A DNA stretch of 64,000 nucleotides from Acaryochloris sp. CCMEE 5410. GTDB lineage: Bacteria > Cyanobacteriota > Cyanobacteriia > Thermosynechococcales > Thermosynechococcaceae. The position numbers and the translations under genes are program-made. The stretch lies in NCBI RefSeq assembly GCF_000238775.2, contig NZ_AFEJ02000003.1:248001-312000 (forward strand), in the 5' to 3' direction. Position 1 is the stretch's first letter; every line of letters starts with the position of its first letter. Positions 11,490 to 59,837 of this stretch are shown here, piece by piece. The notes under the pieces are model-generated. The model worked only from the letters and a program-made list of their open reading frames with translations. It did not search any database and was not told where the DNA came from.

Positions 11490-11493
11490 CCGT

Positions 11494-14499: not shown

Positions 14500-14510
14500 C
14501 GTAGCTGGCA

Positions 14511-45907: not shown

Positions 45908-46098
45908 CAAGGGACTGCTTCTCAAAGCAAACTTGGGTGAATACTAACTGAGGGACGGACATTACCCCGTATCGCTCCCGCGATTGGTTAACGGAATGAT
46001 TCACGGAGGATATGAACATTGAACGGGAGCTGGCCGATCTCCTCTACTGCGGCACTATCTTGCGATCTCAACGTAAACAGCTCTCCCTGCCTAATCTG

Positions 46099-46490
46099 GG
46101 GGTTTGTGGAAGAACCCCCAAAAGTGACGATTCTGAAGTCGGTATGTCCAGAAAACATACATCAAGCGTTTTCGAGCAAGGGATATCAAGTTCAGTAGAA
46201 CCGTTGCAAATACTAGGCTTAAAGCTTCTTCATATTATTCAATTGTCTCCTAACTCAAGAGTTAGGAGACAGCTAAAATCACCCCAAAAACACTGTCTAT
46301 TAAATCGTTAAATCCGAGTTAGTAGACACTACTGTCTATTAATCGATTTAGGAGACATCATTAGAGGCGAAAACTGCACGAGCGTGGGTTTTCATGCTTG
46401 GGATTTTATACCTTGATAAGCTTTAGGACCGGATCAACAACCCAATTCATTGCAGAATCGTCACTTTTGGGGGTTCCTCCACAAAACCCC
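46099..46490. mobile_element. 392-bp MITE with 37-38 bp inverted ends and 7-bp TSD
   Basis: The left end begins GGGGTTTGTGGAAGAACCCC and runs to GACGATTCTG. The right end is its complement with one extra T and one A/G change. TAATCTG is duplicated at 46092-46098 and 46491-46497. No transposase is encoded. The interior holds three related hairpins. Confidence 0.9.
46244..46357. repeat. Three consecutive hairpins with TGTCT/AGACA ends inside the MITE
   Basis: Hairpin 1 (46244-46271) is TGTCTCCTAACTC-AA and its perfect complement. Hairpin 2 (46294-46328) and hairpin 3 (46333-46357) have similar arms, with TGTCTATTAA at the left and TAGACA or GGAGACA at the right. Confidence 0.8.
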
Positions 46491-46653
46491 TAATCTGATT
46501 CAGCTTATGCATGAAATTGCGGATCGTGCGCTCCAGGCTCAACGTCTCGCCGCACCAAGGACGACTCCTTTTCTTGATCAACTCATCCCTCAAGAAAACA
46601 TCCAGCTTGATCATTCAAGACCAGGCCAATAATTACACCTTGGAGGGCTCACC

Positions 46654-46833
46654 ATGACTCCTTTCGATTATGAACTGGCCAAGGGCAATTTAATCAGCGC
46701 GATCAATCTCGCGATCCAGGATGCAAACCAAGCTCTTGACGATGCCGAAAACGCGATCACTAACCTCAATAAACGACAACTACACATCCATCATCTCGCC
46801 CAAAACGCTCTCAACAAGTTCCAGAAACTTTAA
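46654..46833 (+). CDS. Small hypothetical protein, 59 aa
   Basis: The ATG has a GGAGG site 7 bases upstream. The product is MTPFDYELAKGNLISAIN followed by a helical, Ala/Asn-rich body (LAIQDANQALDDAENAITNLNKRQ) ending FQKL. A single long helix or coiled coil is likely. No family is recognised. It lies between the MITE-split gene and DUF6876 on the same strand. Confidence 0.6.
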   Translation: MTPFDYELAKGNLISAINLAIQDANQALDDAENAITNLNKRQLHIHHLAQNALNKFQKL

Positions 46834-46891
46834 ACGAAGCACCTTACTTAACTGCTTCAACCCTCTCGCTACAAATTTCAGAGGAAAATTT

Positions 46892-47281
46892 ATGCTAACT
46901 GCTTCTGAACTGCTTGCTGATCTTGATCATTACTATTGCACTACACAACATTACAAACACCCCTTTGGCCTTCTCTATACCGATGGCGTTAAAGCACTGG
47001 CTATGGGTGGGGAATGCTACTGGCTCATCGATGCGATCGCTAGCTACCAACCAGGAAAAGTCATCCGCGCTAATCCTATGCTCCTAGAGTTCCAGTTATG
47101 GATGTTGACGGTAAAAGAAGACCACAGCGCAGCTTTGGCTTGCTACGAAGATAGCCCCGAAACTTGTGAACCTGTGATTACACAGAACATCCCTAATACC
47201 AATTTCGTTCTGCCAGAAATCAAGCTTTATAAGGTGGGGTGTTACTCTTACCTTCTGAACATTGAGCTGAACTGTCTTTAA
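46892..47281 (+). CDS. DUF6876 family protein
   Basis: The 129-residue product has the family pattern LTASELLADLDHYYCTTQHYKHPFGLLYTDGVKALAMGGECYWLIDAIASYQP and a C-terminal LYKVGCYSYLLNIE. The ATG at 46892 with GAGGAAA is preferred to the upstream in-frame Met at 46721, which would overlap the preceding gene. DUF6876 proteins are frequent on plasmids and integrative elements; the function is unknown. Confidence 0.75.
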   Translation: MLTASELLADLDHYYCTTQHYKHPFGLLYTDGVKALAMGGECYWLIDAIASYQPGKVIRANPMLLEFQLWMLTVKEDHSAALACYEDSPETCEPVITQNIPNTNFVLPEIKLYKVGCYSYLLNIELNCL

Positions 47282-47296
47282 ATACCTGTAATTCAT

Positions 47297-47336
47297 ACCT
47301 AAAATACTTGACTTTAGGTGCAAGTCTTGCTATATT
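47297..47336 (+). promoter_or_regulatory. Cassette promoter 1 with palindromic operator
   Basis: TTGACT (47308) and TATATT (47331) have an ideal 17-bp spacer. ACCTAAA (47297) and TTTAGGT (47313) form a dyad around the -35 box with a 9-bp centre, ATACTTGAC. The same layout recurs at 51205, 57907 and 62170. Confidence 0.75.
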
Positions 47337-47407
47337 AAGTACAGGTTGAGAGGCAAGCCGTTCCTGCTCCACCCATTACTTCTAAAACTGAATAGAACAA
47401 GCGACGA

Positions 47408-47638
47408 ATGCAGACCGCTTATGAGTTACCGCTTCCAGCCGTACCGATAAGGATTGCACCGCTCCTCGAAGGATTAGTAGAGGGTTCAAGGTCTTACCGA
47501 TCTGACCTGAATGATGATCGGTTATTCAAATCTTTTTGCCGCTGGTTAATTCTCGCTGGCTTCATACTCCGCCACTTCTATCTGGGAGTTATTCACGAGG
47601 ATTGGCCAGGGGCTGAGATCGGGCTGATGTCCCGGTGA
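47408..47638 (+). CDS. Cassette small ORF, copy 1 (76 codons)
   Basis: It begins MQTAYELPLPAVPIRIAPLL and EGLVEGS, matching two 52-codon ORFs at 51319 and 58018, then diverges. It lies about 70 bases after the predicted transcript start. In this copy the stop is 149 bases before the next gene, while in the others it overlaps the next gene. The family is not recognised. The sequence is too conserved in all three copies to be an incidental frame, though the underlying RNA could also be what is conserved. Confidence 0.6.
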   Translation: MQTAYELPLPAVPIRIAPLLEGLVEGSRSYRSDLNDDRLFKSFCRWLILAGFILRHFYLGVIHEDWPGAEIGLMSR

Positions 47639-47731
47639 ACCTCATACCTCGCCACTTCGGTCTATGGAGGTCTGTTTCTCCGGGATATGCCTGATCTTGT
47701 TTCTTTTATTGTTGATGTTCTTTTTTCTATG

Positions 47732-47769
47732 GCCCCGGCGAGTTATCCAGTCCGGGGTCGCTCTTTTCT
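47732..47769 (+). terminator. GC-rich hairpin before the DUF932 gene
   Basis: GGCCCCGG and CCGGGGTC pair over 8 positions, with an 13-nt loop, followed by GCTCTTTTCTTG. It could be a terminator or attenuator for the leader transcript, as it ends only 19 bases before the DUF932 start. Confidence 0.5.
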
Positions 47770-47787
47770 TGAATGGGAGTTTTGATT

Positions 47788-48825
47788 ATGCTTCAAGGTT
47801 TATCTTTGGATGCGTTGGCGAATGAGATTCAGGAACAGGCTCAGTTGAAGCAGGATTTTGCGGTGGAGTCTCAACAGATTCAGATGACTCCACAGGGCGA
47901 TCGCTTGCTCGTTCCTAAATTGGGCCTGGATCTATTGGTGAATGATATGGCTCACCGGCAGATGGGGGCTTCGATGAAGATTCATCGTAAGTACTATCTA
48001 CAGATGTTGCACAATGCACCTGATTTGCTGGCGACCAATGTCAATTACTGGCTACAACGTCAAGGACAACGCACTCATGTCCTCCGAACAATGGAGGGGA
48101 CGGCTCGGGCGTTCTTGGGGGGTGGCTATGGCATCGTGGATCATGAGCATTTGCTGTTGCCGTTGCTACTGAAGCTACGAGAGTTAGACGATGACCTGGA
48201 GGTCTTGAGTACAGGGCTGACGGAGAATCGGCTGTTCCTGAAGCTGGCGTTCCCGAAGCTGGAAGGTGAGATCCGAAAAGGAGACGTGATTCGCTCAGGG
48301 GTGACGATTTGCAATTCTGAGACGGGATTGGGGGGACTCAATACGTTTCAAGCGAATTTCCGCCTAGTCTGTACGAATGGGATGACGCGAATGGAGCGGG
48401 GAATGCGCTTCTCGATCCGCCATTCGGGTCAGCGTCATGAGCTGGGGGAAATCCTCGATCCTGATGTCGCGGCTGAGAAGGTTGAGCGCTTTTTGGAACA
48501 CTTCAATGAGGCCAGGGATGAGGCGGCGTTTCAAACGACGCTGGAGCAAATGAGACGCGCTACGCAGCAGTCCGTGGAGGTCTCGGCGGATGTGCTCTTG
48601 GAGAATGCGCGGCAGCACTTTGGACTGACCCTCGATGAGCAAAAAAATGCCCTTGAAAATATCCTCATGGAGGAGGATTTGACCCAGTATGGCCTGATGA
48701 ATGCGTTCACGGCGACGGCGAAGCAGGTTCACTCCTACGCTAGAGCCTCTGAACTCGAAGCGATGGGCTCTAAAATCCTTAACCTCTCTCCCCATAATTG
48801 GAGAGAACTCGCTACCGCTCAGTAA
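47788..48825 (+). CDS. DUF932 protein (phage/plasmid-related)
   Basis: The 345-residue product has the DUF932 pattern: LVPKLGLDLLVNDMAHRQMGASMKIHRKYYLQML, LRTMEGTARAFLGGGYGIVDHEHLL and GGLNTFQANFRLVCTNGM. I chose the ATG at 47788 with GGGAG upstream. DUF932 proteins are widespread on plasmids and phages; a role in DNA metabolism is suspected but not shown. The first promoter/small-ORF cassette is directly upstream. Confidence 0.85.
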   Translation: MLQGLSLDALANEIQEQAQLKQDFAVESQQIQMTPQGDRLLVPKLGLDLLVNDMAHRQMGASMKIHRKYYLQMLHNAPDLLATNVNYWLQRQGQRTHVLRTMEGTARAFLGGGYGIVDHEHLLLPLLLKLRELDDDLEVLSTGLTENRLFLKLAFPKLEGEIRKGDVIRSGVTICNSETGLGGLNTFQANFRLVCTNGMTRMERGMRFSIRHSGQRHELGEILDPDVAAEKVERFLEHFNEARDEAAFQTTLEQMRRATQQSVEVSADVLLENARQHFGLTLDEQKNALENILMEEDLTQYGLMNAFTATAKQVHSYARASELEAMGSKILNLSPHNWRELATAQ

Positions 48826-48890
48826 GCGCTCATTGCAATCACCCTGGCCAGACAAGCTGGGGTGAGCTGGTTTTCACTAAGGAGAATTCT

Positions 48891-49115
48891 ATGCAGACGG
48901 TTAATGATTTCACTCCTGATGAACTCAGGGGAATGGATTTCACGGTCAAGAGTATGCCTGTTGTTTCGGTTTGGATGTGTAAGACTTGCGTGTTCTTCAA
49001 TGCCAACGGTGGTAATGCTGTTGGCATTCGACCCAGTACCCCTATTGATCAGGTACAAGCGGAAATTCACAGCGTTGTCGAGGACTTCAAAAAGTTGGAG
49101 TGGAGACCAGGATAG
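48891..49115 (+). CDS. Small hypothetical protein with CKTC motif
   Basis: The 74-residue product, with an AAGGAG site, includes MPVVSVWMCKTCVFFNANGG and ends DFKKLEWRPG. The CxxC may bind metal. It shares the strand with the DUF932 gene 65 bases upstream. No family is recognised. Confidence 0.6.
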   Translation: MQTVNDFTPDELRGMDFTVKSMPVVSVWMCKTCVFFNANGGNAVGIRPSTPIDQVQAEIHSVVEDFKKLEWRPG

Positions 49116-49279
49116 AAATGAATGTTTTGACCTAGTTACGTCAGTGGACACCTGGCTAGTGTCTTGTCTCACGCAATCGTTTACTCGCAAACACCGCCCG
49201 ATGTTCGTTTTGACCCAAACAATTCGATTCTGCCGTTCTTTGTCTAAGCTGATAATTCTCTACAAGGATTGATGGAAAA

Positions 49280-49447
49280 ATGCCTGAAACCCTCTTAGAT
49301 GCTATCTATGACGCGCTTCGTCTCTCTAATCTGGAGGTCTCTATTGATGGTGACCATAAGTCTAGTGAACTGTTCATTGCCAATGGTCAACACCAAATCT
49401 TTATTCACTCCCGCGATATTGAAGTCTATGAAGTTATCGATGAATAA
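49280..49447 (+). CDS. Small acidic hypothetical protein, 55 aa
   Basis: The frame encodes MPETLLDAIYDALRLSNLEV and later FIHSRDIEVYEVIDE. It is acidic and looks like a compact alpha/beta protein. The ribosome site (AAGGATTG) is modest. No family is recognised; I keep it because the composition is protein-like and it lies in a run of same-strand small genes. Confidence 0.45.
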   Translation: MPETLLDAIYDALRLSNLEVSIDGDHKSSELFIANGQHQIFIHSRDIEVYEVIDE

Positions 49448-49648
49448 GGGAGGATGAAATTGCAATTCGGGGATGCAATTGGGGGGATCTGGACTCGCGA
49501 TCGCACTCCCAAAATTTTGAGCGAGAAAAGTGAGTTAAGTGAGTAGACTGTCAATCTTGAATAGGTACGAATCTAATCCACTTAACACTATAGGTAATAT
49601 CTAGTCTAAATTTCTTGCTGGAAAGTTTTAGAAACACCATACATAACT

Positions 49649-50431
49649 ATGAGAATACTGTACCCTTGCAACCCGCTTGAACCGAAAGAACCGGATCAGC
49701 CTTATACAGACGAATGCATTGCCATCCAACAATTAGGAATACCTGTTTCTCTATTTGCCTATGATAATTTGAGCTTTGGTGATTTCAAACCTTTACCACG
49801 CATTGAGTCAGGTGAAATGGTTTTGTATCGCGGCTGGATGTTTAATATCATCGCTTATCAAGAATTTACCGACTTTATCCGCAAAAAAGGGGGGATTCCA
49901 CTTACTTCAGCCGCAGATTATGCTCATTGCCATCATCTCAATCAGTGGTATTCAGCCTGTGCTGATCTCACCCCTGAAACAGTATTTCTTGAAAGGGACT
50001 CAAACTATCTGGAGCAAATATCAAACTTGAAATGGGACGCTTATTTCATCAAAGACTTTGTGAAATCCAACACTGATGGTCAAGGGTCAATAGCCAATAC
50101 CCCAGAACAAGCGGTTAAAATTATCGGACTGATCGAACAGTATCGGGGAGAGATAGAAGGAGGTGTTTCTGTTCGCAAAGTAGAGTGTTTTCAACCCCAA
50201 TCAGAATTGAGATTTTTTGTGGTCAATGGCACAGCTTATTCGCCCATCCCTGAAGTACCTGCCATTGTTGAAACCGTCACTCAACGGATTGATGCTCCAT
50301 TTTACTCAGTTGATGTCGCCAAAACCGTTGAAGGAAAGGAGCGCATAATTGAGCTAGGAGATGGTCAGGTCTCAGAGCGCAAAACTTGGACTCTTGAGCG
50401 TTTTATCAATATACTGGCTCAAATTGGTTAG
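49649..50431 (+). CDS. ATP-grasp domain protein (R2K-clade-like)
   Basis: The 260-residue product has an N-terminal Rossmann-like half and an ATP-grasp core. Relevant segments are FIKDFVKSNTDGQGS (phosphate-binding loop region), GGVSVRKVECFQPQSELRFFVVNG and a metal-binding IIELGDGQVSE. Members of this R2K clade are often found in biological-conflict loci, where they may ligate peptides or modify a partner. The next gene (50548), on the same strand 116 bases downstream, could be its partner. The substrate is not known. Confidence 0.75.
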   Translation: MRILYPCNPLEPKEPDQPYTDECIAIQQLGIPVSLFAYDNLSFGDFKPLPRIESGEMVLYRGWMFNIIAYQEFTDFIRKKGGIPLTSAADYAHCHHLNQWYSACADLTPETVFLERDSNYLEQISNLKWDAYFIKDFVKSNTDGQGSIANTPEQAVKIIGLIEQYRGEIEGGVSVRKVECFQPQSELRFFVVNGTAYSPIPEVPAIVETVTQRIDAPFYSVDVAKTVEGKERIIELGDGQVSERKTWTLERFINILAQIG

Positions 50432-50547
50432 CTCTCGCAAAAACATCAAAAATACTATTTGAGATCGCAGAACCAGATTGACAATTAAAAGGCTTCCTTA
50501 ATAACCGAATCCCACGAGATTGCACATTCACCTCAATCCATACCGAC

Positions 50548-51180
50548 ATGGAAGAACCGATTAAAGACAACCTCAACATCTTGTTTCTTTTACACCAGCG
50601 GTTCAAGTACCTCAACAATCACCCTTGCATCTTAGAATGCAATGACATAGAGAATGCCTGCTATATTGGCAACCTGAGAACTGATAACTTCATTGGGTTT
50701 GTCCTCGGGTATGAAATTTCAGAAGTCTCACTAAAACCAGATCACTTCAAGCTGCTGGAAGAGACCGAGAACCTGCAAATCACAAAGTACAGAATGCTAA
50801 ATGCTGTAAAGCCTTGGCCCCAACCAAATATTTCAATCGGGATGAATGAAGGTCATCCTGGAGAAGTCATTGAGATTCAAGAAATTCCAGTAATCCTTAA
50901 AAATTTCGGTTCTGCCCAATTATGGTGGGGAGAGAAAGTTGCAGTCCTTTGGGAAGCGTTTTTTGATGAAAAATTCGATATTCCACTCGACAGTGACATG
51001 CTTTTGAATCAGCTCTGGCAAAATTGCGAGAGCTTTCTTGCTCATCAAGGTGTACGGCATATCTATACCTATAATCGTGATCCACGATTCGAGACTGATT
51101 GGTATCAAAGCTTTCTCAAGCAAAGAGGTTATCAATCTGTAAAGCAAAGACCAGCAACAGTCTGCAAGCTAATGGCCTGA
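50548..51180 (+). CDS. Hypothetical protein, possibly GNAT-like C terminus
   Basis: The 210-residue product is not recognised. The last third (QLWQNCESFLAHQGVRHIYTYNRDPRFETDWYQSFLKQRGYQSV) resembles the end of acetyltransferase-like folds, where a residue pattern F-x5-GY closes the domain. It follows the ATP-grasp gene on the same strand and precedes the second promoter cassette. The prediction is weak. Confidence 0.5.
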   Translation: MEEPIKDNLNILFLLHQRFKYLNNHPCILECNDIENACYIGNLRTDNFIGFVLGYEISEVSLKPDHFKLLEETENLQITKYRMLNAVKPWPQPNISIGMNEGHPGEVIEIQEIPVILKNFGSAQLWWGEKVAVLWEAFFDEKFDIPLDSDMLLNQLWQNCESFLAHQGVRHIYTYNRDPRFETDWYQSFLKQRGYQSVKQRPATVCKLMA

Positions 51181-51204
51181 GCATTTGACTTAAATTGTCC
51201 ACAA

Positions 51205-51249
51205 CTCACACCTAAAATACTTGACTTTAGGTGTGAGTATTGCTATATT
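51205..51249 (+). promoter_or_regulatory. Cassette promoter 2 with 12-bp-arm perfect palindrome
   Basis: CTCACACCTAAA (51205) and TTTAGGTGTGAG (51226) form a perfect 12-bp dyad with centre ATACTTGAC, overlapping TTGACT (51221). TATATT follows at 51244 with a 17-bp spacer. This is the strongest of the four operators. Confidence 0.8.
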
Positions 51250-51318
51250 AGGTACAGGTTAAGAGACAGGTTCTCCTGTTCCACCCACCACTTAAAAAAC
51301 TGAATAGAACAGCGACGA

Positions 51319-51477
51319 ATGCAGAACGCTTATAGATTGCCGCTCCCAGCCGCTTCTATAGGGATTGCACAGCTCCCCGAAGGATCAGTAAGGGGTTCAC
51401 CCACACCAAAAACAACAGCTTTTGACATCAAGGAAAGTCCCGTTGGGGCTGTTGTTTCTAAGGAGTCATTTATATGA
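51319..51477 (+). CDS. Cassette small ORF, copy 2 (52 aa)
   Basis: The frame reads MQNAYRLPLPAASIGIAQLP then EGSVRGS and ends at TGA 51475-51477, overlapping the next ATG (51474) as ATGA. The overlap implies translational coupling. The first 27 codons match copies 1 and 3, whereas the C terminus differs. A hairpin (AAACAACAGC with GCTGTTGTTT) spans its last third. It is below usual annotation size, and the family is not recognised. Confidence 0.6.
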   Translation: MQNAYRLPLPAASIGIAQLPEGSVRGSPTPKTTAFDIKESPVGAVVSKESFI

Positions 51478-51761
51478 CTACTATTTCTTTATCCCTAGCA
51501 ATTGCCAGTATTCCTGAAGTGCAGCTTGTGGCTGCTCAGCGACAATACCTGATCGCTACATTGGGTGACCAGCATTTGAATGAGATGGCAATAGTGGATT
51601 GCTACGGTTGGACTCTAGATCACTACTGCGGTGGTGATGCCGACCTAGCATATGAAGTTTTATCTGCTGTGTTCAGCATACCCAATCGGGTTCGAGTTAC
51701 CAGCTTAGATGAAGCACTACAACCGTTGCCAGGTGAGCCAGTGCAGCTTAACTTGTTCTAG
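51474..51761 (+). CDS. Hypothetical protein, 95 aa
   Basis: The product MTTISLSLAIASIPEVQLVA is followed by AQRQYLIATLGDQHLNEMAIVDCYGWTLDHYCGGDADLAYEVLSAVF and a C-terminal QLNLF. No family is recognised. It is controlled by cassette 2 and translationally coupled to the small ORF. The LNLF end may be a short binding tail, as seen in some sliding-clamp ligands (QL-x-LF pattern), but this is speculative. Confidence 0.6.
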   Translation: MTTISLSLAIASIPEVQLVAAQRQYLIATLGDQHLNEMAIVDCYGWTLDHYCGGDADLAYEVLSAVFSIPNRVRVTSLDEALQPLPGEPVQLNLF

Positions 51762-51864
51762 GGATTTTTGGGGCATATGCCCCAGTCTTAATGCAGCCTG
51801 CACCCTACAGCAGCCCGTGACAAGCCGGAAATGCAGAGTCAAGGCAATTTATTGGGGAGTTGCG

Positions 51865-51996
51865 ATGAGAATGAAATCTTGGGAATCTCCACGCAGAGGG
51901 AAAACCCGAAACAATAAGTCCAAAAAAGCTACCGCCAGACTAAGGCAGCTCAAAAAACGACGACAACAGTTCAAGAAAGCATTGGAGGCATCATGA
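51865..51996 (+). CDS. Very basic 43-aa protein
   Basis: The ATG follows GGGGAG. The product MRMKSWESPRRGKTRNNKSK and the following Arg/Lys-rich helix suggest nucleic-acid binding. Its stop overlaps the next ATG as ATGA, supporting that it is translated. Confidence 0.55.
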   Translation: MRMKSWESPRRGKTRNNKSKKATARLRQLKKRRQQFKKALEAS

Positions 51997-52292
51997 AATT
52001 TAACCTCCAGCGATTACAGCATGGTCTCCAACCTGGGTTCGTATTCAAGGTCAAACCTGAATCCATACATTGGGATCGTGAAGATCGCTACTTCTATGCT
52101 ATCCCTAGCCATTATTGTTCATCTCAATGTGAAATTGGCGATTGCTGGATCGTTGATCAATCCGGCAATATCCATCCAGGATATTGCAACAGTCCTATTC
52201 CACTCTGCCGAGATGCATTGGAATATCCTGCTGTCGGTATTGTCTCGCTGGAGCAAGAACCCCATGAGCAAGAAATCCAGCATGTCTATTAA
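51993..52292 (+). CDS. Hypothetical protein, Cys-rich, 99 aa
   Basis: The product has a beta-rich body, FVFKVKPESIHWDREDRYFYAIPSHYCSSQCEIGDCWIVDQSGNIHPGYCNSPIPLC, with five cysteines in spaced pairs, so it may bind zinc. It overlaps the upstream basic protein by ATGA. No family is recognised. The downstream IscB transcript region begins near its stop. Confidence 0.55.
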   Translation: MKFNLQRLQHGLQPGFVFKVKPESIHWDREDRYFYAIPSHYCSSQCEIGDCWIVDQSGNIHPGYCNSPIPLCRDALEYPAVGIVSLEQEPHEQEIQHVY

Positions 52293-52297
52293 AGGCG

Positions 52298-52547
52298 ATG
52301 GTCAGCAACCTCTATGAACTAGCGACCCCTTCTTTTAGGTAGGGACTTACAAATTCTATAGCTGACCATGGCTAAGTCTTAACTGACTACGTTTTTAAGG
52401 CCAACTCACCCATGAATGCTTGCCAGTTTGTGGCTCTGAGGTTGGAGATTAAACAGAAGTATGAGGATTAATTCAGTGTCTCCAGCACGACAAACCTCAA
52501 AAACATTGCCGAGGCAAACATCACACGAAAGTAGAAGGGACGCAACA
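52298..52547 (+). ncRNA. Candidate omega RNA upstream of iscB
   Basis: OMEGA guide RNAs lie directly 5' of iscB, and this 250-base gap has no gene. A long-range stem (ATGGTCAGC at 52298 with GCTGACCAT at 52361) encloses a loop containing CCCCT and AGGG complementary pieces. The 5' limit and guide segment cannot be fixed by eye. Confidence 0.5.
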
Positions 52548-53825
52548 ATGTCCAACTATGTTTTTGTCATTGATACCAACCATAGACAACTCAATCCTTC
52601 TACGCCAGGTGTGGCACGTTCACTCTTGAATGCAAGGAAGGCGGCAATCTATCGACGGTATCCATTCACTATTATTCTAAAGAAGGAAGTTACGGGACTA
52701 GTTGAGCCTTGCCAACTCAAGATTGACCCAGGTTCTAGAGCAACAGGGTTAGCGATTCTCCAAGGCAATAGAGTTCTCTGGGGTGCGGAACTAACCCATA
52801 GAGGCCAATCTATCAAGAACAGTTTGGAGTCTCGCCGCTCACTTCGTAGGGGCCGACGAGGACGAAAAACCCGATATCGTCAGCCCAGATTTCTCAATCG
52901 AACTCGACCAAAAGGCTGGCTAGCTCCCTCCTTAATGCACCGGATATTGACCACCATGACTTGGGTAAATCGGCTAATCAAGCTTTGCCCAATCCAATCC
53001 ATCGCCCAAGAACTAGTAAGGTTTGATACCCAAGTAATACAAAATCCTGAGATATCAGGTACTCAGTACCAGCAAGGCACTCTTTATCAATACGAGACAC
53101 GAGAATATCTCCTCGAAAAATGGGGACGGCAATGTGTCTACTGCGGTCAAGAAGACACTCCTTTAGAAGTAGAGCATATTGTTTCCCGCTCCAAAGGTGG
53201 GAGTAACCGCGTCTCTAATCTCACAATTGCCTGTGTGCCCTGCAATCAAAAGAAGTCTAATCGTTCTATCGAAGACTTTCTATCGGGCAAACCTGATCTG
53301 CTTAAGCGGATCAAGGCCCAGGCGAAAGCACCGCTTAAGGATGCCGCAGCCGTTAACGCGACACGATGGAAACTATTCAATGCGCTGAAAGAGATGGGCC
53401 TTCCTGTTTCAGTTGGGACAGGTGGTCAGACCAAGTTTAACCGCAAGCAACAGGACTTACCCAAGGCGCATTGGATTGATGCAGCGGCAACAGGGAAAGA
53501 TATACCCGAGCTTGAGTTCTGCACTAGTCAGCCGTTGTTGATTCAATGTTCTGGTCATGGCACACGTCAAATGTGTGGCACAGACAAATACGGGTTCCCA
53601 ATCCGTTATCGGTCGAAGAAGAGGATTCACTACGGCTTCCAGACTGGTGATATCGTCAAGGCTGTTGTTACGCAAGGTAAAAAGATTGGCTCTTATATGG
53701 GGCGTGTTTTATGCCGAAAGTCTGGCAACTTCGATATCTCGACAAAAGATGGACGAGTAACCGGAATCAGTCACAAGTATTGCACTCATATTCATAAAAA
53801 GGATGGTTACAATTATGCTTTCTAG
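52548..53825 (+). CDS. iscB: IscB (RuvC-HNH OMEGA nuclease)
   Basis: The 425-residue RNA-guided nuclease has an N-terminal PLMP/RRXRR-type domain (FVIDTNHRQLNPSTPGVARSLLNARKAAIYRRYPF), RuvC-I with Asp60 in KIDPGSRATG, and an Arg-rich bridge helix (RRSLRRGRRGRKTRYRQPRF). RuvC-II has Glu155 in AQELVRFD. The HNH with zinc cysteines has CVYCGQ and EHIVSRSKGGS, where His210 is catalytic. RuvC-III has Asp311 in HWIDAAA. All catalytic residues are kept. I chose ATG 52548 over an upstream in-frame start, because AAGGGA precedes it and it gives the standard N terminus. No transposase accompanies it. Confidence 0.92.
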   Translation: MSNYVFVIDTNHRQLNPSTPGVARSLLNARKAAIYRRYPFTIILKKEVTGLVEPCQLKIDPGSRATGLAILQGNRVLWGAELTHRGQSIKNSLESRRSLRRGRRGRKTRYRQPRFLNRTRPKGWLAPSLMHRILTTMTWVNRLIKLCPIQSIAQELVRFDTQVIQNPEISGTQYQQGTLYQYETREYLLEKWGRQCVYCGQEDTPLEVEHIVSRSKGGSNRVSNLTIACVPCNQKKSNRSIEDFLSGKPDLLKRIKAQAKAPLKDAAAVNATRWKLFNALKEMGLPVSVGTGGQTKFNRKQQDLPKAHWIDAAATGKDIPELEFCTSQPLLIQCSGHGTRQMCGTDKYGFPIRYRSKKRIHYGFQTGDIVKAVVTQGKKIGSYMGRVLCRKSGNFDISTKDGRVTGISHKYCTHIHKKDGYNYAF

Positions 53826-53867
53826 ATTTGTTGATTTGGGGTTCGAGACCCCAAATCAACAAATCTA
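53823..53867. repeat. 20-bp perfect hairpin at the iscB stop codon
   Basis: TAGATTTGTTGATTTGGGGT (53823-53842) and its exact complement (53848-53867) flank TCGAG. The stem starts in the stop codon. No T-run follows, so it is more likely an element end or processing signal than an intrinsic terminator. Confidence 0.85.
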
Positions 53868-54010
53868 TACCTACCCTCTCGATCGCATCACTCACTATAT
53901 GAAGGGGCTTCTCGGAGGTTCTGGTGAATGGCGTAAACATAGAAACAAAAGGCAATCAAGACGGTCCTGGAAGCGCGAAAGACAAGCCTACAAGCGGAGG
54001 GTACGCAACG

Positions 54011-54736
54011 ATGGCTAACGCAATCCTTCACATCCGTGATCTCCCCGTTGAAGATAGGCCAAGAGAACGGCTGATGAATAATGGTGCTAATCAGCTCAGC
54101 AGTGCTGAACTCCTCACCATCTTGTTGGGAACGGGACAGGGACCAGGGAAACTTTCGGCGATGGGTCTAGGTCAGTCGTTACTCAAAGAATTAAATCAAG
54201 ATCAAGACCCCCTAAAACGTCTCAGACAAATCACCCCGGAAGAGCTAACTCAAATTCATGGCATTGGCCAAGCTAAAGCTGCCACAATACTAGCTGCCAT
54301 CGAATTAGGGAGAAGAGTTCATCATCCGAGCCCTAACCTAGGAACCATCATCGATGATCCATCGGTAGCTGTTGAAGCCTTATCAGAACACCTCATGGGG
54401 CAGATCAAGGAAAAATTTGCAGTACTCCTGCTCGACGTAAAACATCGTCTGCTTGGAACACACATCGTTTCCGTTGGCACAGCAACCGAAACCCTAGCGC
54501 ATCCCCGTGAAATATTTGGGGAAATCATTCGCAGAGGTGCTTCACGAGCCATCATTGCTCACAATCACCCCAGTGGCATGGCAGACCCCAGTCAAGACGA
54601 TATTACCCTAACTCGGCAGCTCCTAGATGCAGCCAAAATTATGGGTATTCCAATCCTCGATCATTTAGTCATTGGGAACGGTTCGTTTACCAGCCTTCGC
54701 CAAACCACATCCCTTTGGGAGGATGTCACCGAATAA
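54011..54736 (+). CDS. radC: RadC-family JAB-domain protein
   Basis: The 241-residue product has the RadC layout: an N-terminal UPF0758 part ([32 protein letters not shown]), a helix-hairpin-helix ([24 protein letters not shown]) and a JAMM metalloprotease-like motif ([15 protein letters not shown]). The ATG at 54011 follows GGAGGG. RadC homologues are common on plasmids and integrative elements; a role in DNA repair is not established. It lies immediately after IscB's hairpin. Confidence 0.9.
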
Positions 54737-54748
54737 TCTCAATCGTTT

Positions 54749-54780
54749 TCTTATGTAAAATATTCGATTTTTACATAAGA
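54749..54780. promoter_or_regulatory. 12-bp-arm palindrome between radC and next gene
   Basis: TCTTATGTAAAA and TTTTACATAAGA form a perfect dyad with an 8-bp centre. GATAAT at the right edge could be a -10 box, which would make this an operator of the gene at 54805; alternatively it terminates radC. Confidence 0.5.
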
Positions 54781-54804
54781 TAATCAACCTCTTGGAACTG
54801 CAAA

Positions 54805-55041
54805 ATGGACTTTCAACTCAGCTACGTTTGGCCAGACGAACAATTCACCACCATCCGCGTAGATGCCGCAGTCGCTTGCGGCAAACGATTTGAAGGTGTG
54901 GCCTATATTCTCCAACCGCTCTCAAAGAACCCTAGCCTTCAAATCCCCAACGGACTGGGAATAAGAAGCACTCAGCAAATCCTTGATCGGATTAGTCAAG
55001 GATTTGAGATTCCTGAAATAAGCAAGGAAGAACGTCAATGA
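54805..55041 (+). CDS. Hypothetical protein, 78 aa
   Basis: The product MDFQLSYVWPDEQFTTIRVD continues AAVACGKRFEGVAYILQPLSKNPSLQIPNGLGIRSTQQILDRISQGFEI. It overlaps the next gene by four bases (ATGA), which supports it being expressed. No family is recognised; it may work with the DUF5983 protein that follows. Confidence 0.55.
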   Translation: MDFQLSYVWPDEQFTTIRVDAAVACGKRFEGVAYILQPLSKNPSLQIPNGLGIRSTQQILDRISQGFEIPEISKEERQ

Positions 55042-55397
55042 ATACTCATCCATCACTAGGGAGTTTTGCCCTAGTCAATACCGATCAAATTCCCTCAGAA
55101 GATTTCTGTAAACTCCTCAAGGCTACAAAACCGGAGGTTGGCAATCCCCAAGTGTTCCGCACTGGTCTGGTGGATGCTGGTTTTTTCGTCTTTATCGGTG
55201 AAGATCCAGAAACTTGGGTAGAAGATTTCAAGCTGTATTCCCCTCGCCTTCAGCAAATCGTGCGATGGGCAGCAAGCATAGGTGCTACCTACCTGCTACT
55301 TCACCCAGACTGTACCCATGCAGAAATTGGAAGCCTACCTATTGCACCAATCAAAAAAAGCCAGCATATAGAAAACCGAACTGAGGCTGAATTTTGA
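55038..55397 (+). CDS. DUF5983-like protein
   Basis: The 119-residue product shows a pattern similar to DUF5983: FALVNTDQIPSEDFCKLLKA, then WVEDFKLYSPRLQQIVRWAASIGATYLLLHPDCTHAEIGSLP. Members are found on plasmids and integrative elements, often near RadC and DUF932. The match is by eye. It overlaps the preceding gene by ATGA. The function is unknown. Confidence 0.6.
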   Translation: MNTHPSLGSFALVNTDQIPSEDFCKLLKATKPEVGNPQVFRTGLVDAGFFVFIGEDPETWVEDFKLYSPRLQQIVRWAASIGATYLLLHPDCTHAEIGSLPIAPIKKSQHIENRTEAEF

Positions 55398-55443
55398 GTT
55401 TTCTATCCGTTCACCAACTACAACACTGAACAGGAGGAATTGA

Positions 55444-55794
55444 ATGAGAACTGGATCTCATTTAAAAATTAAAAACTTCGGTACAAACGCTCAAGGTATT
55501 GAACTCAAAGGAAATCCCCAACAGCGCGAACATGCAACCTTCCTAGTTTTCTTCCCAGGTGGATGCGTTGAAATAACTCGAACATCAGATTGCCGGTACT
55601 GGATCCATACAATGATCCTAGAACCCAATACTGGCAATGGTGATCGAACAGATGATCGGGCAATTGGCCAGATGGTTGAAGCATTCTTTCGCCATCCAAA
55701 GGACGGAGCAATTGATCTAACCCACTCTCAAGAGATCGCAGATAACACCCGCGTTCTTAGCGCTCTCATCGATCACAACAGACGCAAGCGCTAA
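55444..55794 (+). CDS. Hypothetical protein, 116 aa
   Basis: The product includes IKNFGTNAQGIELKGNPQQREHATFLVFFPGGCVEITRTSDCRYWIHTMIL and an acidic centre (NGDRTDDRAIGQMVEAFFRHPKD). AGGAGG precedes the ATG. No family is recognised. It lies 24 bases before the TGT-like/DGQHR gene and may be part of the same transcript. Confidence 0.6.
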   Translation: MRTGSHLKIKNFGTNAQGIELKGNPQQREHATFLVFFPGGCVEITRTSDCRYWIHTMILEPNTGNGDRTDDRAIGQMVEAFFRHPKDGAIDLTHSQEIADNTRVLSALIDHNRRKR

Positions 55795-55818
55795 TAAAGC
55801 TTTCATCAAAACTAACCC

Positions 55819-57897
55819 ATGAAATTCTACACATCAGGCATCTCCGGGAAAAAGGAGTTGTCCATGGTTGAGGCCGCAGGTACGCAACTCCCACTCTTAG
55901 TCGATCCCGTAGACTTGAAGCACGTTGCTAATTGGCCTGGTCCCATAGCTCTAGATTCAGGCGCATATCGAGCGTTTAAGTCTAAGTCACTGATCAATAT
56001 CGAGCAGTACTTAGCAGCCGCGTTCAGCCGCCCCTTTGATTTTGTTGTAGCACCCGACGTGATCGGAAACCCAGAGCAGAGCTATCAGAATTGGCTGAAA
56101 GTTAAGGATCTGTCCTTAAATATCCTGCCTGCTTGGGAATGGGGTAGTGATCAGTCCTATCTCCATCACTACTTAGATCATGCCCCAGTTGTCGGTATCG
56201 GCGGCCTGGTGCCGGTGATGCGAATGAAGAATTCCGGGTCAGAGCGAAAAATCAAGGATCAGATGCTGGCGGAGCTAAAACAGATGTGCCTTCAGTATCC
56301 TGCTCGGTTTCATATCTTCGGCATGAACTGGCTTTGGGCCATTGAAAGTCTCAATAGCCTAGTTTTTAGCGGAGATAGCTCTAAGTGGCTGGATGGCGCA
56401 CGTTATGGTCATCTAATTTTTACAAATTCTCGAACAGGCCATCTTTCTCAAGCGCCAGCAAAAGCCTTGCCTGAATCTCAAAGCATGGATCGGCAAGACC
56501 GCTGCATTTCAAATATTCAAGCAATCGCTAATTTTACTCAAGCAGAGGAGCCCCAAAATATGGCTACATCATCTCAAACCAAAACGACTCCATCCGCAAA
56601 GGAAAAAGCCTCCTCAAAAAAAGAAACAACCCCCTGTTACCAATTCCCCGCTGTATCTGGAATTCAAAGTGGCCAGCCCTATTACACAACAATGATTCCG
56701 ATCAAGCTGCTTCCCAAGTTTTTCGTCTTGGAGACGGAGACAATGCCCGCCGAAATGAGGGCTCAACGCCAACTCAATTCATCCCGAGCTAGAAAACTAT
56801 CTGCCTACGTTCTGGCTGGTGATTACACCCTATCCAGCGTTGTTGTTACGGTCGAGCTTGAAAAAAAGGATGCTAAAGCCTTCCAATTTGACCCGGTACA
56901 GGGCGAACTCGGCATGTTGAATGTGCCGATGTCATCTAGGTTTCTGATTGCAGATGGCCAGCATCGCATCCACGGACTAAAACTTGCACTAGAAGAGAAC
57001 CCAGAGATCGGTGAAGAATCGATAAGCTGTGTTGTTTTTCTCCACTCGGATTTAGACCGAGCCCAGCAAATTTTCCACGATCTAAATTTTTACGCGAGTA
57101 AGCCCAACAAGTCGATCACCAGCCTTTACAACCATAAATCCGAATCTGCTGAGATTGCCCGGTTAGTCATGGTCGGTGTTCCTATCTTCAGGCAGTACAC
57201 AGACACGGAAAAAACTAGTTGCTCAAAGAAATCCCTCAAAGTCTTTACCTTCAATGCCATTGAGGAAGCCTCGCACATTCTCTCTGAAAGACTAACTGGC
57301 ACACCGAAACAAAAGGCTAAGCTCATTTGTGCCTTCTTCAAACTCATTACTGAAGAAATCACTGAATGGTCAAGCCTAATCAAAAAATCGACTACATCGT
57401 CTGAAATCCGCCAGGACTTCATCTGTTGCCATGCGATTGCCCTGATCGCGATCGCACGGGCAGGAGCTACTTGCATTCACCTTAAAAACTGGAGAGAATC
57501 AATTCAGTCTCTAGCCCTTGGCCAGGTGAACTGGACAAAAACTAATCCCGATTGGGAGAACCTAATTATCTTCGGAGGCAGGATTCATAAGAATCAAACT
57601 ACTGCTGGCGAATTCGCTCAATACTTGCTCCAACGTGGTGTTCCTTGCGAGGAAGTGATCCAAGCCTCCATGAAAGATTGGCTTTCACAGCACTTCCATG
57701 GATATACCAAAGCTGATATTGAAAATCAGCTAGGTGCAAAAGCAGATATTCTGAGCGTGCTGGAGACCTTCCTTGAGGAAAAGCCCATCCAGGCCGACGA
57801 TCCAACACTTAAATCTGCCTGGTTCAACGCTCGAACACAGTTCCTGAAAGTGCGAGGGATCTTTCTACTCGAATCAATACAGAAAGGTGGTAAGTAA
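55819..57897 (+). CDS. TGT-like (DpdA-like) domain fused to DGQHR (DndB-like) domain
   Basis: The N-terminal 235 residues have the order and motifs of tRNA-guanine transglycosylase-like folds: LDSGAY (Asp46), APDVIG (Asp80), PAWEWG, VGIGGLVP, FHIFGM and SGDSSKWLDGARYG (Asp186). Enzymes of this superfamily exchange guanine for a 7-deazaguanine in RNA or, as DpdA, in DNA. A Lys/Thr/Ser-rich linker (about 240-270) leads to a DndB/DpdB-like domain with RFLIADGQHRIHG (Asp379). An ATG at residue 248 (56560) follows AGAGGAG, so the second domain may also be made alone. Linkage of the two domains in one ORF is unusual. No sulfur-modification genes (dndCDE) are nearby. Confidence 0.7.
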   Translation: MKFYTSGISGKKELSMVEAAGTQLPLLVDPVDLKHVANWPGPIALDSGAYRAFKSKSLINIEQYLAAAFSRPFDFVVAPDVIGNPEQSYQNWLKVKDLSLNILPAWEWGSDQSYLHHYLDHAPVVGIGGLVPVMRMKNSGSERKIKDQMLAELKQMCLQYPARFHIFGMNWLWAIESLNSLVFSGDSSKWLDGARYGHLIFTNSRTGHLSQAPAKALPESQSMDRQDRCISNIQAIANFTQAEEPQNMATSSQTKTTPSAKEKASSKKETTPCYQFPAVSGIQSGQPYYTTMIPIKLLPKFFVLETETMPAEMRAQRQLNSSRARKLSAYVLAGDYTLSSVVVTVELEKKDAKAFQFDPVQGELGMLNVPMSSRFLIADGQHRIHGLKLALEENPEIGEESISCVVFLHSDLDRAQQIFHDLNFYASKPNKSITSLYNHKSESAEIARLVMVGVPIFRQYTDTEKTSCSKKSLKVFTFNAIEEASHILSERLTGTPKQKAKLICAFFKLITEEITEWSSLIKKSTTSSEIRQDFICCHAIALIAIARAGATCIHLKNWRESIQSLALGQVNWTKTNPDWENLIIFGGRIHKNQTTAGEFAQYLLQRGVPCEEVIQASMKDWLSQHFHGYTKADIENQLGAKADILSVLETFLEEKPIQADDPTLKSAWFNARTQFLKVRGIFLLESIQKGGK

Positions 57898-57906
57898 GTA
57901 ATTCAT

Positions 57907-57946
57907 ATCTAAAATACTTGACCTTAGATACAAGTCTTACTATATT
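57907..57946 (+). promoter_or_regulatory. Cassette promoter 3 with palindromic operator
   Basis: ATCTAAA (57907) and CTTAGAT (57923) form the dyad with one mismatch around TTGACC (57918); TATATT is at 57941 after 17 bp. Confidence 0.7.
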
Positions 57947-58017
57947 AGGTACAGGTTGATGGGCAGGCCATCCCTGCTCATCCCCATTACTGCCACAACT
58001 GAATAGAACTGCGACGA

Positions 58018-58176
58018 ATGCAGCAGGCTTATGAAATGCCGCTTTATGCCGCGTCCATAGGGATTGCACCGCACCTCGAAAGACTAGTAGAGGGTTCAGG
58101 GTTTTCCCGGTCAACCCTTCAACAGGCCGGGAAACGTTCTAATTTTTTACTCTCCCAATTAGAGGAACGCCAATGA
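58018..58176 (+). CDS. Cassette small ORF, copy 3 (52 aa)
   Basis: The frame reads MQQAYEMPLYAASIGIAPHL, then ERLVEGS, and stops at TGA 58174-58176, overlapping the ATG of the DUF5895 gene (58173). Its length is exactly that of copy 2, though the last 25 codons are unrelated in sequence. A hairpin (TTTCCCGG and CCGGGAAA) lies in its second half. Confidence 0.6.
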   Translation: MQQAYEMPLYAASIGIAPHLERLVEGSGFSRSTLQQAGKRSNFLLSQLEERQ

Positions 58177-58883
58177 TGACCCAACCAAACCCCACTGATG
58201 AATTCAGCGGAGAGGAATTTGGAGCTGGTAAAACCTTTACTCCGTATCTTCAAGTCATTCACCATAAAGAGGCGAACGATTCAGGCTTCTTTCTGGCCGA
58301 AGACAACGCCCAGGCCGTCAACTTTAAGCCTAATCCAGATTGGTTGCCCTACACAGCTAGTCTAGGCGCGGATACCATACCAGGATACCGATCACTAAGC
58401 GCCCGAATCGTGGTTGTCCGACGCACCCCATTATTGATGTTCAGTCGGAGTGAGAAAACATTCTTAGGTGTATTTGACACAAATACCTATAACGCTCAAA
58501 AAGCCTCCATCCTGTTAAAAAGTAGATACCTCATCTACCTCATCTCAAAGGACAAAAAACTTCTTCATACCGAGCCACTGCAATTTACGACTAAAGGCTC
58601 ATTGTCTGGTTCCTTTGGTCAATCCTATTCCGAATTCAGACAAGCCATGGAATCAGCCTATGGTCGAAAACGAGGCGATCGCTTCTTTGCTCTATGCGTC
58701 TTTCCGGTTCAACTACAGCCGGTGCTGAAAGGCAGAGAACAGCAGTCCTACGTTTGTACCGTAGAGAAATTCGGAAAACCCACCGCTGAAAATTGGAAAG
58801 GATTTTTCCTGGGCTATTCAGAAGTCAAGGATAAATTACTCCAAGACTTCGACACCTATGCTGATTTCGTAAACGTAGATTGA
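58173..58883 (+). CDS. DUF5895 family protein
   Basis: The 236-residue product matches the cyanobacterial DUF5895 pattern: FTPYLQVIHHKEANDSGFFLAEDNAQAVNF, RIVVVRRTPLLMF and a C-terminal WKGFFLGYSEVK. Members occur on plasmids and islands; no function is known. Its ATG overlaps the cassette-3 small ORF, so both are translated in step. Confidence 0.75.
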   Translation: MMTQPNPTDEFSGEEFGAGKTFTPYLQVIHHKEANDSGFFLAEDNAQAVNFKPNPDWLPYTASLGADTIPGYRSLSARIVVVRRTPLLMFSRSEKTFLGVFDTNTYNAQKASILLKSRYLIYLISKDKKLLHTEPLQFTTKGSLSGSFGQSYSEFRQAMESAYGRKRGDRFFALCVFPVQLQPVLKGREQQSYVCTVEKFGKPTAENWKGFFLGYSEVKDKLLQDFDTYADFVNVD

Positions 58884-58978
58884 ACCATTGAGACTCGTCC
58901 AGCTATAGCTTCTGGACGAGTCCTCTGACCACGCTCCGACCACTTCAAGGAGCATCCACGCTTTTAAGGACATAACCC

Positions 58979-59593
58979 ATGATTAACCTTCCAAAACCAT
59001 CTCTAGAGAACGAACAAGCAACCGACCTAGACAACTACAATCCACTTTCAACAGCACGGCTTGAAATCAGATCGGAGAAAGCTTTCTTGTTCTATCGCCA
59101 AGTCTTCCTTGGGCTAACTGACAAACTAGGTACTTTTGCCCTCATGGTCCTGGTCGAGATTATTAAAGCCCTATGGCATCTCGTGAGTTTACTCGGGCAA
59201 GCAGGCTTTAGGAGCTTTCAGCACAACCACCCTCAAACTTCAGAACGAGCGGTCTGGTTGGCTGGTGCAACAAAAGCCTTATTCACCAAAGCTGACATTC
59301 CCCAGTTCCCAGTGTTTAAGGAAAAGCCTTCAGAAAGTAAAGAGTCAGAGACTCAAGAGTCTTTAACTCAAGAAACGGACAATCAAGTAGAGGAGTATGA
59401 TCCACCTCTGGAAGACACTGAAGAGCCGCAGGAAGAGCAAGCCCCTATAGTAGCGGCCACTGACTTGCTTGAAGACCTTGATACGAATGCTCTGAGAAAG
59501 CTGGCAACTAAGCGGAAAGTCCACCTAAATTTGCCGGTGAGCCAATGCCGCAAACCGGAACTCATTGAGGCATTAACAACACACTCTCGTTAA
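58979..59593 (+). CDS. Hypothetical protein with C-terminal SAP/Rho-N-like motif
   Basis: The 204-residue product has a hydrophobic helix near residues 45-75 (FLGLTDKLGTFALMVLVEIIKALWHLVSLL), an acidic Glu/Gln-rich linker (about 120-155) and a C-terminal DLDTNALRKLATKRKVHL plus KPELIEAL. The last part resembles the SAP or Rho N-terminal helix-extended-loop-helix that binds nucleic acid. It follows DUF5895 by about 95 bases and is probably co-transcribed. No named family. Confidence 0.6.
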   Translation: MINLPKPSLENEQATDLDNYNPLSTARLEIRSEKAFLFYRQVFLGLTDKLGTFALMVLVEIIKALWHLVSLLGQAGFRSFQHNHPQTSERAVWLAGATKALFTKADIPQFPVFKEKPSESKESETQESLTQETDNQVEEYDPPLEDTEEPQEEQAPIVAATDLLEDLDTNALRKLATKRKVHLNLPVSQCRKPELIEALTTHSR

Positions 59594-59600
59594 TTAGCGA

Positions 59601-59837
59601 GCTGGTCACCATAAATCCTAGAGGTGGCCAGCGAGTGACAGTCTCAACAGCTATTTCAACCAGTGAGTCATGAACCCCTCCCTGCCCTTCGGGACTGAGG
59701 AAGGGGCTTGATCGGTCTCAGCCGAGCACTAAGTCATGACTAGACCATGAGCTAAATGCAGTCACGTACGTTCGGGCGTTTCCCTAACTCGAACCTCTAC
59801 AAGCCTTCTGAGAAAAGGCGTGGGGTAAAGCCCAGAG
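59601..59837 (+). ncRNA. Candidate omega RNA of IsrB
   Basis: The 237-base gap before isrB is rich in stems: GCTGGTCACC with GGTGGCCAGC (59601-59632), and CCCCT-CC-TGCCC around TTCG with GGG and AGGAAGGGG (about 59676-59707). Guide RNAs of IsrB and IscB lie at this position. Exact ends and the guide cannot be read by eye. Confidence 0.5.

Follow-up and report, generated by a model that had tools for sequence, protein, structure and literature searches.

A candidate control cassette of operator-promoter and predicted RNA leader, dispersed on a plasmid-like contig of Acaryochloris sp. CCMEE 5410

To judge from its sequence, a plasmid-like contig of Acaryochloris sp. CCMEE 5410 carries a dispersed control cassette, i.e. 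a putative operator-promoter followed by a leader that is predicted to fold as RNA, which is placed before different genes. The window of our analysis is a stretch of 64,000 nucleotides corresponding to positions 248001-312000 of contig C3 (416,239 bases), which belongs to a genome of 8.09 Mb in 23 contigs. A preliminary description of this DNA had located three such units at 47297-47638, 51205-51477 and 57907-58176, each with palindrome, promoter, leader and small open reading frame (ORF) in the same order, and we find all three at these places and in that order. It had also recognized that the promoter-leader unit is reused before unrelated genes; this is borne out on a larger scale, with six copies of the unit and not three.

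The same set of six copies, all on C3 (Table 1), is obtained by a pattern search, by BLAST and by a covariance-model search of the own genome. BLAST with copy 2 against this genome yields the other five copies with E-values of 4.4e-30 or better, in addition to one chance match of 23 bases on contig C1 (E 0.1); the copies are 76-85% identical to copy 2. The copies at C3 11057 (+) and 408671 (-) lie inside an 11-kb inverted repeat with 98.7% identity, and those at 295381 and 404836 inside a 2.2-kb duplication with 92.4% identity, which includes the DUF932 gene. Because of these two segmental duplications, the six copies represent four independent settings. In all four, the similarity starts around the palindrome and stops sharply at GGTTC, a boundary that lies 26 codons into the small ORF. 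As the similarity is limited to this stretch in every setting, the copies do not derive from one recent tandem duplication that included the downstream genes, an origin that the preliminary description had weighed against its own reading. The leader measures about 150 nt in each copy, its last 107 nt or so being the predicted structured core, and all three cassettes of the window contain exact copies of AACTGAATAGAAC and GCGACGAATGCAG. Alignments, pair counts and pN/pS values are based on five of the six copies, the one at 408671 being left out, since its core does not differ from that of the copy at 11057; a six-row alignment was also made and served for the similarity boundaries. The two arms of the 11-kb inverted repeat are situated at the two ends of the contig (3548-14656 of locus L076 and 5169-16239 of locus L094). 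They contain a transposase gene of the rve/Mu-C type, an adjoining gene that appears ATPase-like by eye, a gene with a sub-cut-off match to sigma-70 region 2, and the cassette copy; some reading frames are unlike between the two arms.

Table 1. Predicted features of the cassettes. Positions refer to the window unless contig C3 is named.
Feature	Position	Strand	Basis
Cassette copies on contig C3	C3: 11057, 295381, 299293, 305992, 404836, 408671	+, +, +, +, -, -	
Copy 1, candidate palindromic operator over the -35 box	47292..47324	.	matrix 42.5 bits; 18 of 33 positions self-complementary
Copy 1, sigma-70-like promoter TTGACT-17-TATATT	47308..47336	+	promoter scan
Copy 1, leader 5' hairpin (weakly supported; presumed transcription start)	47338..47380	+	consensus fold
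Copy 1, predicted structured RNA core	47381..47487	+	consensus fold, single folds, column shuffles
Copy 1, small ORF of 76 codons without clear selection as a peptide	47408..47638	+	ORF reading, pN/pS
Copy 1, downstream gene, DUF932 protein	47788..48825	+	PF06067, 32.5 bits
Copy 2, candidate palindromic operator, 12-bp perfect arms CTCACACCTAAA-N9-TTTAGGTGTGAG	51205..51237	.	operator matrix
Copy 2, sigma-70-like promoter	51221..51249	+	promoter scan
Copy 2, leader 5' hairpin (weakly supported)	51251..51292	+	consensus fold, column shuffles
Copy 2, predicted structured RNA core	51293..51398	+	consensus fold, single folds, column shuffles
Copy 2, small ORF, 52 codons, ATGA overlap with next gene	51319..51477	+	ORF reading, pN/pS
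Copy 2, hypothetical protein of 95 aa, first gene downstream	51474..51761	+	no Pfam, NCBIfam or PADLOC match
Copy 3, candidate operator, arms ATCTAA/TTAGAT	57902..57934	.	37.2 bits
Copy 3, sigma-70-like promoter TTGACC-17-TATATT	57918..57946	+	promoter scan
Copy 3, leader 5' hairpin (weakly supported)	57948..57991	+	consensus fold, column shuffles
Copy 3, predicted structured RNA core	57992..58097	+	consensus fold, single folds, column shuffles
Copy 3, small ORF, 52 codons, ATGA overlap with next gene	58018..58176	+	ORF reading, pN/pS
Copy 3, downstream gene, DUF5895 protein	58173..58883	+	PF19247, 113.9 bits

All six copies possess the promoter-like sequence TTGAC-17-TATATT. The three window promoters are among the four best-scoring (10/12) of nine promoter-like matches found on both strands of 46000-62000, and this overall number is below the shuffle mean of 20.2. 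The palindrome over the -35 box had been described as RYCTAAA-N9-TTTAGRY, a form that applies to copies 1 and 2 and to the copy at 404836, but not to copy 3 with its shorter arms, nor to the copies at 11057 and 408671, where the left arm is ATCTTAAA. Our symmetric operator matrix was built from five of the operators, so that high scores at its own sites are expected; it gives 37-46 bits at the six cassettes. The best place of one simulated contig scores 9.7 bits, and the scan of C3 reveals no further operator site outside the six cassettes (maximum 11.3 bits). Such a single set of operators would suit a dedicated repressor of six promoters. No repressor gene was found: among the scanned proteins encoded after the cassettes, the sub-cut-off match to sigma-70 region 2 is the only sign of a regulator family. 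The absence of an additional operator on C3 counts against an autoregulated repressor, unless the repressor is itself transcribed from one of the cassettes.

The last 107 nt or so of the leader are best read as a structured RNA, a reading behind which stand five distinct sequences. According to the RNAalifold consensus of these copies, a 5' hairpin (columns 1-44) precedes a core in which GAAC (59-62) pairs with GUUC (148-151) and thereby closes two arms; the first consists of UGCG/CGCA, continued by UGCAG/UUGCA and CUUAU/AUAAG, and the second of CCUC/GAGG. With its invariant GAA and AGUA, the loop of the second arm recalls what we take to be a loop-E (sarcin-ricin) motif. Both arms are part of the minimum-energy fold of all five distinct cores folded singly, and the closing stem GAAC/GUUC appears in two of these five folds; the 150-nt leader of copy 1, folded alone, has another minimum-energy fold than the consensus. 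The energies of the single cores are no better than those of dinucleotide shuffles (z between -0.82 and +0.57 for the five cores). When alignment columns are shuffled within conservation classes, the consensus energy of the core has a z of -2.92 and is reached by 5 of 1000 shuffles, that of the whole leader by 11 of 1000; for the 5' hairpin alone, 92 of 1000 shuffles fold as well, i.e. it is unsupported. No match to the three window cassettes was found in Rfam 15 at E <= 5, nor any in these cassettes at the gathering score when the whole window was searched.

At pair 64/127, three copies have U-A and two have A-U; the two DUF932 copies, which are the closest to each other, are swapped here by changes on both sides. 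Five of 46 pairs have changed on both sides. Of 500 shuffles, 43 give as many such pairs and 375 as many pair types, but only one attains the covariation score and two the count of paired cells. Eight columns of the core differ between the DUF932 copies: four differences lie in unpaired columns and four keep or restore pairs, namely the two of the 64/127 swap, one change from C-G to U.G and one from A.C to G-C. In the 5' hairpin of the same copies, two of four differences break pairs. The covariation of CCTC/GAGG with CCCC/GGGG that was reported beforehand holds for one pair, in which both sides are replaced (U-A to C-G), but the neighbouring position in register is a C.A in copy 2. Compared over 450 nt from the presumed transcription start, the leader regions of the two DUF932 copies differ at 29 positions, 12 in the first 150 and 17 in the next 300, and the core is no better conserved than the remainder; this leader differs at about a third of the synonymous proportion of the DUF932 gene in the one pair that is comparable.

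For the small ORF, the length of 52 codons and the ATGA overlap given for copies 2 and 3 are correct, but the ORF length is not conserved across copies: it amounts to 76 and 65 codons in the DUF932 pair, and to 82 and 60 in the near-identical copies of the inverted repeat. Over the 26 shared codons, variable columns are spread 9/9/7 over first, second and third codon positions. The pooled pN/pS of the ORF is 0.74, with a span from 0.41 to 1.74 in single pairs (ten pairs), and the ratio is not a clean measure here, since the pairing also restrains synonymous sites. In the DUF932 pair, the ORF has a pN/pS of 0.72 over 65 codons versus 0.08 in the DUF932 gene, which differs at 13 nonsynonymous and 47 synonymous sites (pS 0.20) over 336 codons, the length of the comparison being set by the shorter ORF of the second copy. 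Hence, purifying selection on the amino acids of the small ORF, a check proposed in the preliminary description, is not seen (0.72-0.74 compared with 0.08 in the neighbour gene). The 64/127 swap turns a Leu codon into His, which is explained by RNA pairing and not by peptide constraint. Past the core, the frame remains open for longer than in shuffles, with fractions of 0.15, 0.46, 0.49 and 0.03 in the four settings; their product is 0.0009 with the repeat-borne copy and about 0.03 without it, and only this copy, in which the ORF frame overlaps another gene, makes the openness notable. The ORF is probably not a selected peptide, to judge from these substitutions; a weak peptide constraint is possible given the span of pN/pS, and the ORF of copies 2 and 3 may also have a coupling role that needs no selected peptide. 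For the control device that had been supposed to depend on either the peptide or the RNA, covariation and column shuffles of the five distinct sequences speak for the RNA, but the substitutions, which are spread over the codon positions and for the most part alter the amino acid, and the unlike ORF ends do not favour the peptide. The RNA, more than the potential small peptide, is probably what is kept in the cassette.

Between core and gene, the sequences are unrelated from one setting to another, and complementarity, accessibility, hairpins and terminators reveal no common expression platform after the core across the four settings. Complementarity between core and downstream sequence, compared with mononucleotide shuffles, is at chance in three of the four settings (p 0.55, 0.56 and 0.70), copy 3 having a p of 0.02. 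The accessibility of the start regions is ordinary (quantiles 0.26 to 0.87 relative to 173 predicted C3 genes), as are the hairpins before the cassette genes (quantiles 0.14 to 0.63 of 276 predicted genes), the control genes in both cases stemming from crude gene calling on C3. In local folds, the Shine-Dalgarno bases are mostly paired, with unpaired probabilities of 0.02-0.17 in copy 1 and 0.10-0.39 in copy 3. Terminator-like matches in 46000-62000 number 15, with 15.0 in shuffles; one weak terminator-like site is located between core and gene of copy 2 (51436-51450). An unusual masking of the ribosome site is rejected or at least weakened by the accessibility quantiles, and attenuation with a shared platform by the ordinary levels of terminators, hairpins and, in three settings, complementarity. 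With no shared platform found, an ordinary riboswitch becomes less plausible, and an element whose action does not depend on the sequence after it more so.

The genes after the cassettes include those for DUF932, RadC, a DndB-domain protein and DUF5895, given the assumed extent of the transcription units; downstream of the repeat-borne copy are a DUF6876 gene and the sub-cut-off match to sigma-70 region 2. For the 95-aa protein after copy 2, neither a Pfam, NCBIfam or PADLOC match nor a tblastn match in plasmids was found. Between the first two genes after copy 2, positions 51785-51844 (+) match the Twister-P1 ribozyme with 33.1 bits, short of the gathering score of 67.2 bits (local search, E 3.3e-5). 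Further downstream, 52301-53825 (+) comprises a HEARO RNA (129.8 bits) and, after it, an IscB gene (467.8 bits); a stretch of 1.5 kb at C3 334596-336142, with 95.9% identity to this HEARO/IscB region, contains a second IscB-like gene. A 407-aa IscB relative at 59838-61061 (+) is below the IscB cut-off (81.9 of 175 bits, residues 25-205 matched) and is possibly, as we presume, IsrB-like. The reading frame 55819-57897 (+) encodes a protein of 692 aa with about 270 N-terminal residues without Pfam match and a DndB domain.

The explanation that we favour, and consider fairly probable, is a plasmid regulon like those of the establishment-gene regulatory sequences (EGeRS) of pLS20 and p576, in which an operator-promoter is joined to a folded, cis-acting leader and the ORF is a by-product or a coupling ORF. 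According to this model, one presumed repressor would bind the palindrome over the -35 box and hold six consensus-like promoters together. Where repression is absent, for instance in a newly entered cell, all these operons would be switched on together. Each transcript would begin with the leader, whose 3' two thirds would form a compact branched RNA with its arms closed by GAAC/GUUC. This RNA would act in cis at a fixed distance from the transcription start, largely regardless of the downstream sequence, and most likely modify the elongation complex or the fate of the transcript, not serve as a switch of a terminator or ribosome-binding site. The small ORF would result incidentally from the RNA sequence or would, at most, serve for coupling, with no selected peptide. 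A more far-reaching version sees in the branched leader a new class of RNA; by loading the elongation complex or protecting the transcript, this RNA would let dispersed establishment genes of a cyanobacterial plasmid be expressed together immediately on entry. We regard this version as tentative and on balance doubtful. If it were true, an RNA layer would lie on top of repressor-timed zygotic induction, with sister classes of leaders on other Acaryochloris plasmids. A regulon marked by both a DNA operator and an RNA leader would allow the co-regulated genes of a plasmid to be listed from the sequence alone, and the leader would be a tractable RNA for reporter tests of a cis role, with the pair-swap copies as natural mutants.

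Four other readings have to be weighed against this regulon. The similarity could be that of a scattered repeat without selected RNA function, explained by copying, in which the operator-promoter alone matters. The occurrence of the cassette on one replicon only, the segmental duplications that explain two of the six copies and the ordinary energies of the single folds agree with this view; it appears unlikely all the same, because the differences between copies preserve pairs, including the swap between the closest copies, the leader of the DUF932 pair has diverged less than the synonymous sites of its gene, and a common sharp 3' boundary is found in four settings. Translational coupling, in which the ORF is translated as a leader peptide and ribosomes at the ATGA stop open the next start site, would account for the overlaps and the equal spacing of 155 nt in copies 2 and 3, for a frame that is open past the core in all four settings and for the mostly paired Shine-Dalgarno bases of copies 1 and 3. 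But this geometry is absent in the DUF932 and repeat-borne copies, the ORF of the three window copies has by reading no clear Shine-Dalgarno sequence of its own, and a pN/pS near 0.7, the even spread over codon positions, the unlike ends in near-identical copies and the ordinary accessibility of the start regions make us give coupling little credence as the main function.

A classical riboswitch or attenuator, with the core as an aptamer that controls a downstream terminator, is suggested by the position of a structured core straight after the promoter, by mutually exclusive hairpins that can be drawn (by reading) after the core in copies 1 and 3, by the weak terminator-like site of copy 2 and by the complementarity in copy 3. 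However, the sequences after the core have nothing in common between settings, complementarity in the other three, terminator-like matches and hairpins before genes are all at ordinary levels, and the cassettes have no Rfam match, which leaves this mechanism improbable. The last reading is a single-stranded promoter like Frpo of leading regions, whose repeats fold as ssDNA after conjugative entry and become active promoters. As ssDNA, copies 1 and 2 indeed fold more favourably than their shuffles (z from -2.6 to -4.3), and a relaxase gene is present on C3; yet the fold of copy 3 is not beyond chance (z +0.65 and +0.51), and the hairpin formed by the palindrome of copies 1 and 2 has most of the -35 box in its loop, with the -10 box left unpaired. 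A folded stem with both boxes, as in Frpo/ssi promoters, was thus found in none of copies 1-3, and this reading seems very improbable.

The regulon reading that we prefer has its closest models in other bacteria. The available parts of PMC8708921 and PMC11541004 describe the control of establishment genes on E. coli and Bacillus plasmids; nothing of the kind for cyanobacteria was among the literature matches listed, and the main text of PMC11541004 on leading-region genes, as far as available, does not name DUF932, RadC or cyanobacteria. An establishment role of the cassettes is suggested by their organisation, not by gene content. In the accessible portion of PMC8708921, EGeRS2 of p576 is a promoter with operator under one repressor (Reg) before several operons. 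The likeness consists in a repeated regulatory sequence, an operator next to the -35 box and operons of mixed function: on C3, too, a conserved regulatory sequence precedes several operons of one plasmid-like replicon (six copies, four settings), and the sequence predicts a strong promoter and binding at an operator beside its -35 box. EGeRS2 differs in its TTATCCC dual-motif operators and in one copy that drives the repressor gene, according to the same part of this source, whereas the cassette has another palindrome, no repressor gene that we found and a long structured RNA after the promoter. EGeRS1 of pLS20 is described there as a sequence of 420-750 bp whose tested copy lacks a promoter and blocks read-through. 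Like the cassette, it is, in this text, a long repeated sequence with a predicted RNA or ssDNA fold that ends shortly before the genes of several operons; unlike EGeRS1, for which no sigma-A-type promoter inside is characteristic, the cassette starts with a consensus-like promoter. The cassette therefore appears to combine both kinds; it is EGeRS2-like at the DNA level, and we claim no membership in this type, to which transient expression in a recipient following transfer also belongs. Structured RNAs near the 5' end of transcripts of mobile elements are also the nascent-RNA antitermination elements put of HK022 and conAn2 of pLS20, as the available parts of PMC9378689 and PMC8955417 describe them; they are models for a possible action of the RNA, not relatives. 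Processive antitermination RNAs, among them put, EAR and conAn2, enable RNA polymerase to pass terminators.

Relatives of the cassette were sought beyond C3. The covariance-model search proposed at the outset gave no convincing copy outside the own genome: our RNA model, R1, has no convincing match under strict filters in 387 other genomes of the class, each search covering 388 genomes including the own one, with identical tallies that suggest largely one set. It also found no match in seven plasmid records under the same filters, where an empty answer shows little. A match with E 0.73 in one other genome aligns poorly and was taken as chance. Exact cassette patterns occur at no locus among genome contigs and viral contigs, and the 44 loci of a shorter pattern in unrelated bacteria, none of which R1 accepts at E <= 1, were likewise attributed to chance. 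With two mismatches allowed, a search of 194 genomes produced single matches in three other genomes in which the rest of the unit is absent. Neither blastn of the cassette (plasmids and phages) nor tblastn of the 27-aa core peptide (plasmids) gave a match.

Nine promoter-leader-hairpin units are present on the Acaryochloris plasmids pMB01, pMB03, pMB05, pREC1, pREC2 and pREC3 (loci L095, L096 and L098-L101). Three of these leaders precede DUF932 genes (pMB01, pMB03 and pREC2), and the others short hypothetical genes on all six plasmids, which are followed by a DUF3768 gene on pMB03, pMB05 and pREC2. Five of the nine share one sequence type, three another, and one belongs to neither; an AACTRAATA box occurs in five, and the hairpins of all nine are strong, within the lowest 13% relative to C3 control genes. 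The order of promoter, leader, hairpin and gene is that of the cassette, but R1 has no match to these leaders (one run with strict filters), and only 3 of 50 pairwise comparisons with the window cassette reach p <= 0.005, a marginal resemblance; we rejected them as members. On pMB03, AGTC..GACT palindromes are present both at a gene for a helix-turn-helix regulator, which adjoins DUF932, and at the two leader promoters, an arrangement that corresponds to the logic of an autoregulated repressor described for p576 in the available text of PMC8708921. pREC2 has one AGTC..GACT site, and a search by this pattern gave none at the four remaining loci. Further leader types, at least two in number and each with a strong hairpin behind it, are seen at L095 7749-7990, L099 5975-6190 and L101 6010-6250; Rfam gave chance-level matches or none on the searched stretches of L095, L096 and L100.

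As to mobility, C3 contains a TrwC-type relaxase match 25-36 kb from the window cassettes, which agrees with the regulon reading; its orientation, the same as that of these cassettes and thus unlike the case in the five relaxase-bearing Acaryochloris plasmids that were compared, counts against it. PF03135 (T4SS ATPase) has no match in the genome, and self-transfer is thus unsupported by sequence. Leader and TrwC gene are 17-26 kb apart in four of the five relaxase-bearing plasmid records and about 170 kb apart in the fifth; a common ancestry of these plasmids is possible. Six plasmid records, all from Acaryochloris, resemble the 40-64 kb part of the window at the DNA level, each over at most 6% of it. 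On a plasmid of Leptolyngbya NIES-3755 (L097 11380-11640), CTGCTGATACCGCAG occurs in the leader of the gene that immediately precedes a DUF5895 homologue, and it is also present in the DUF932 leader of L095.
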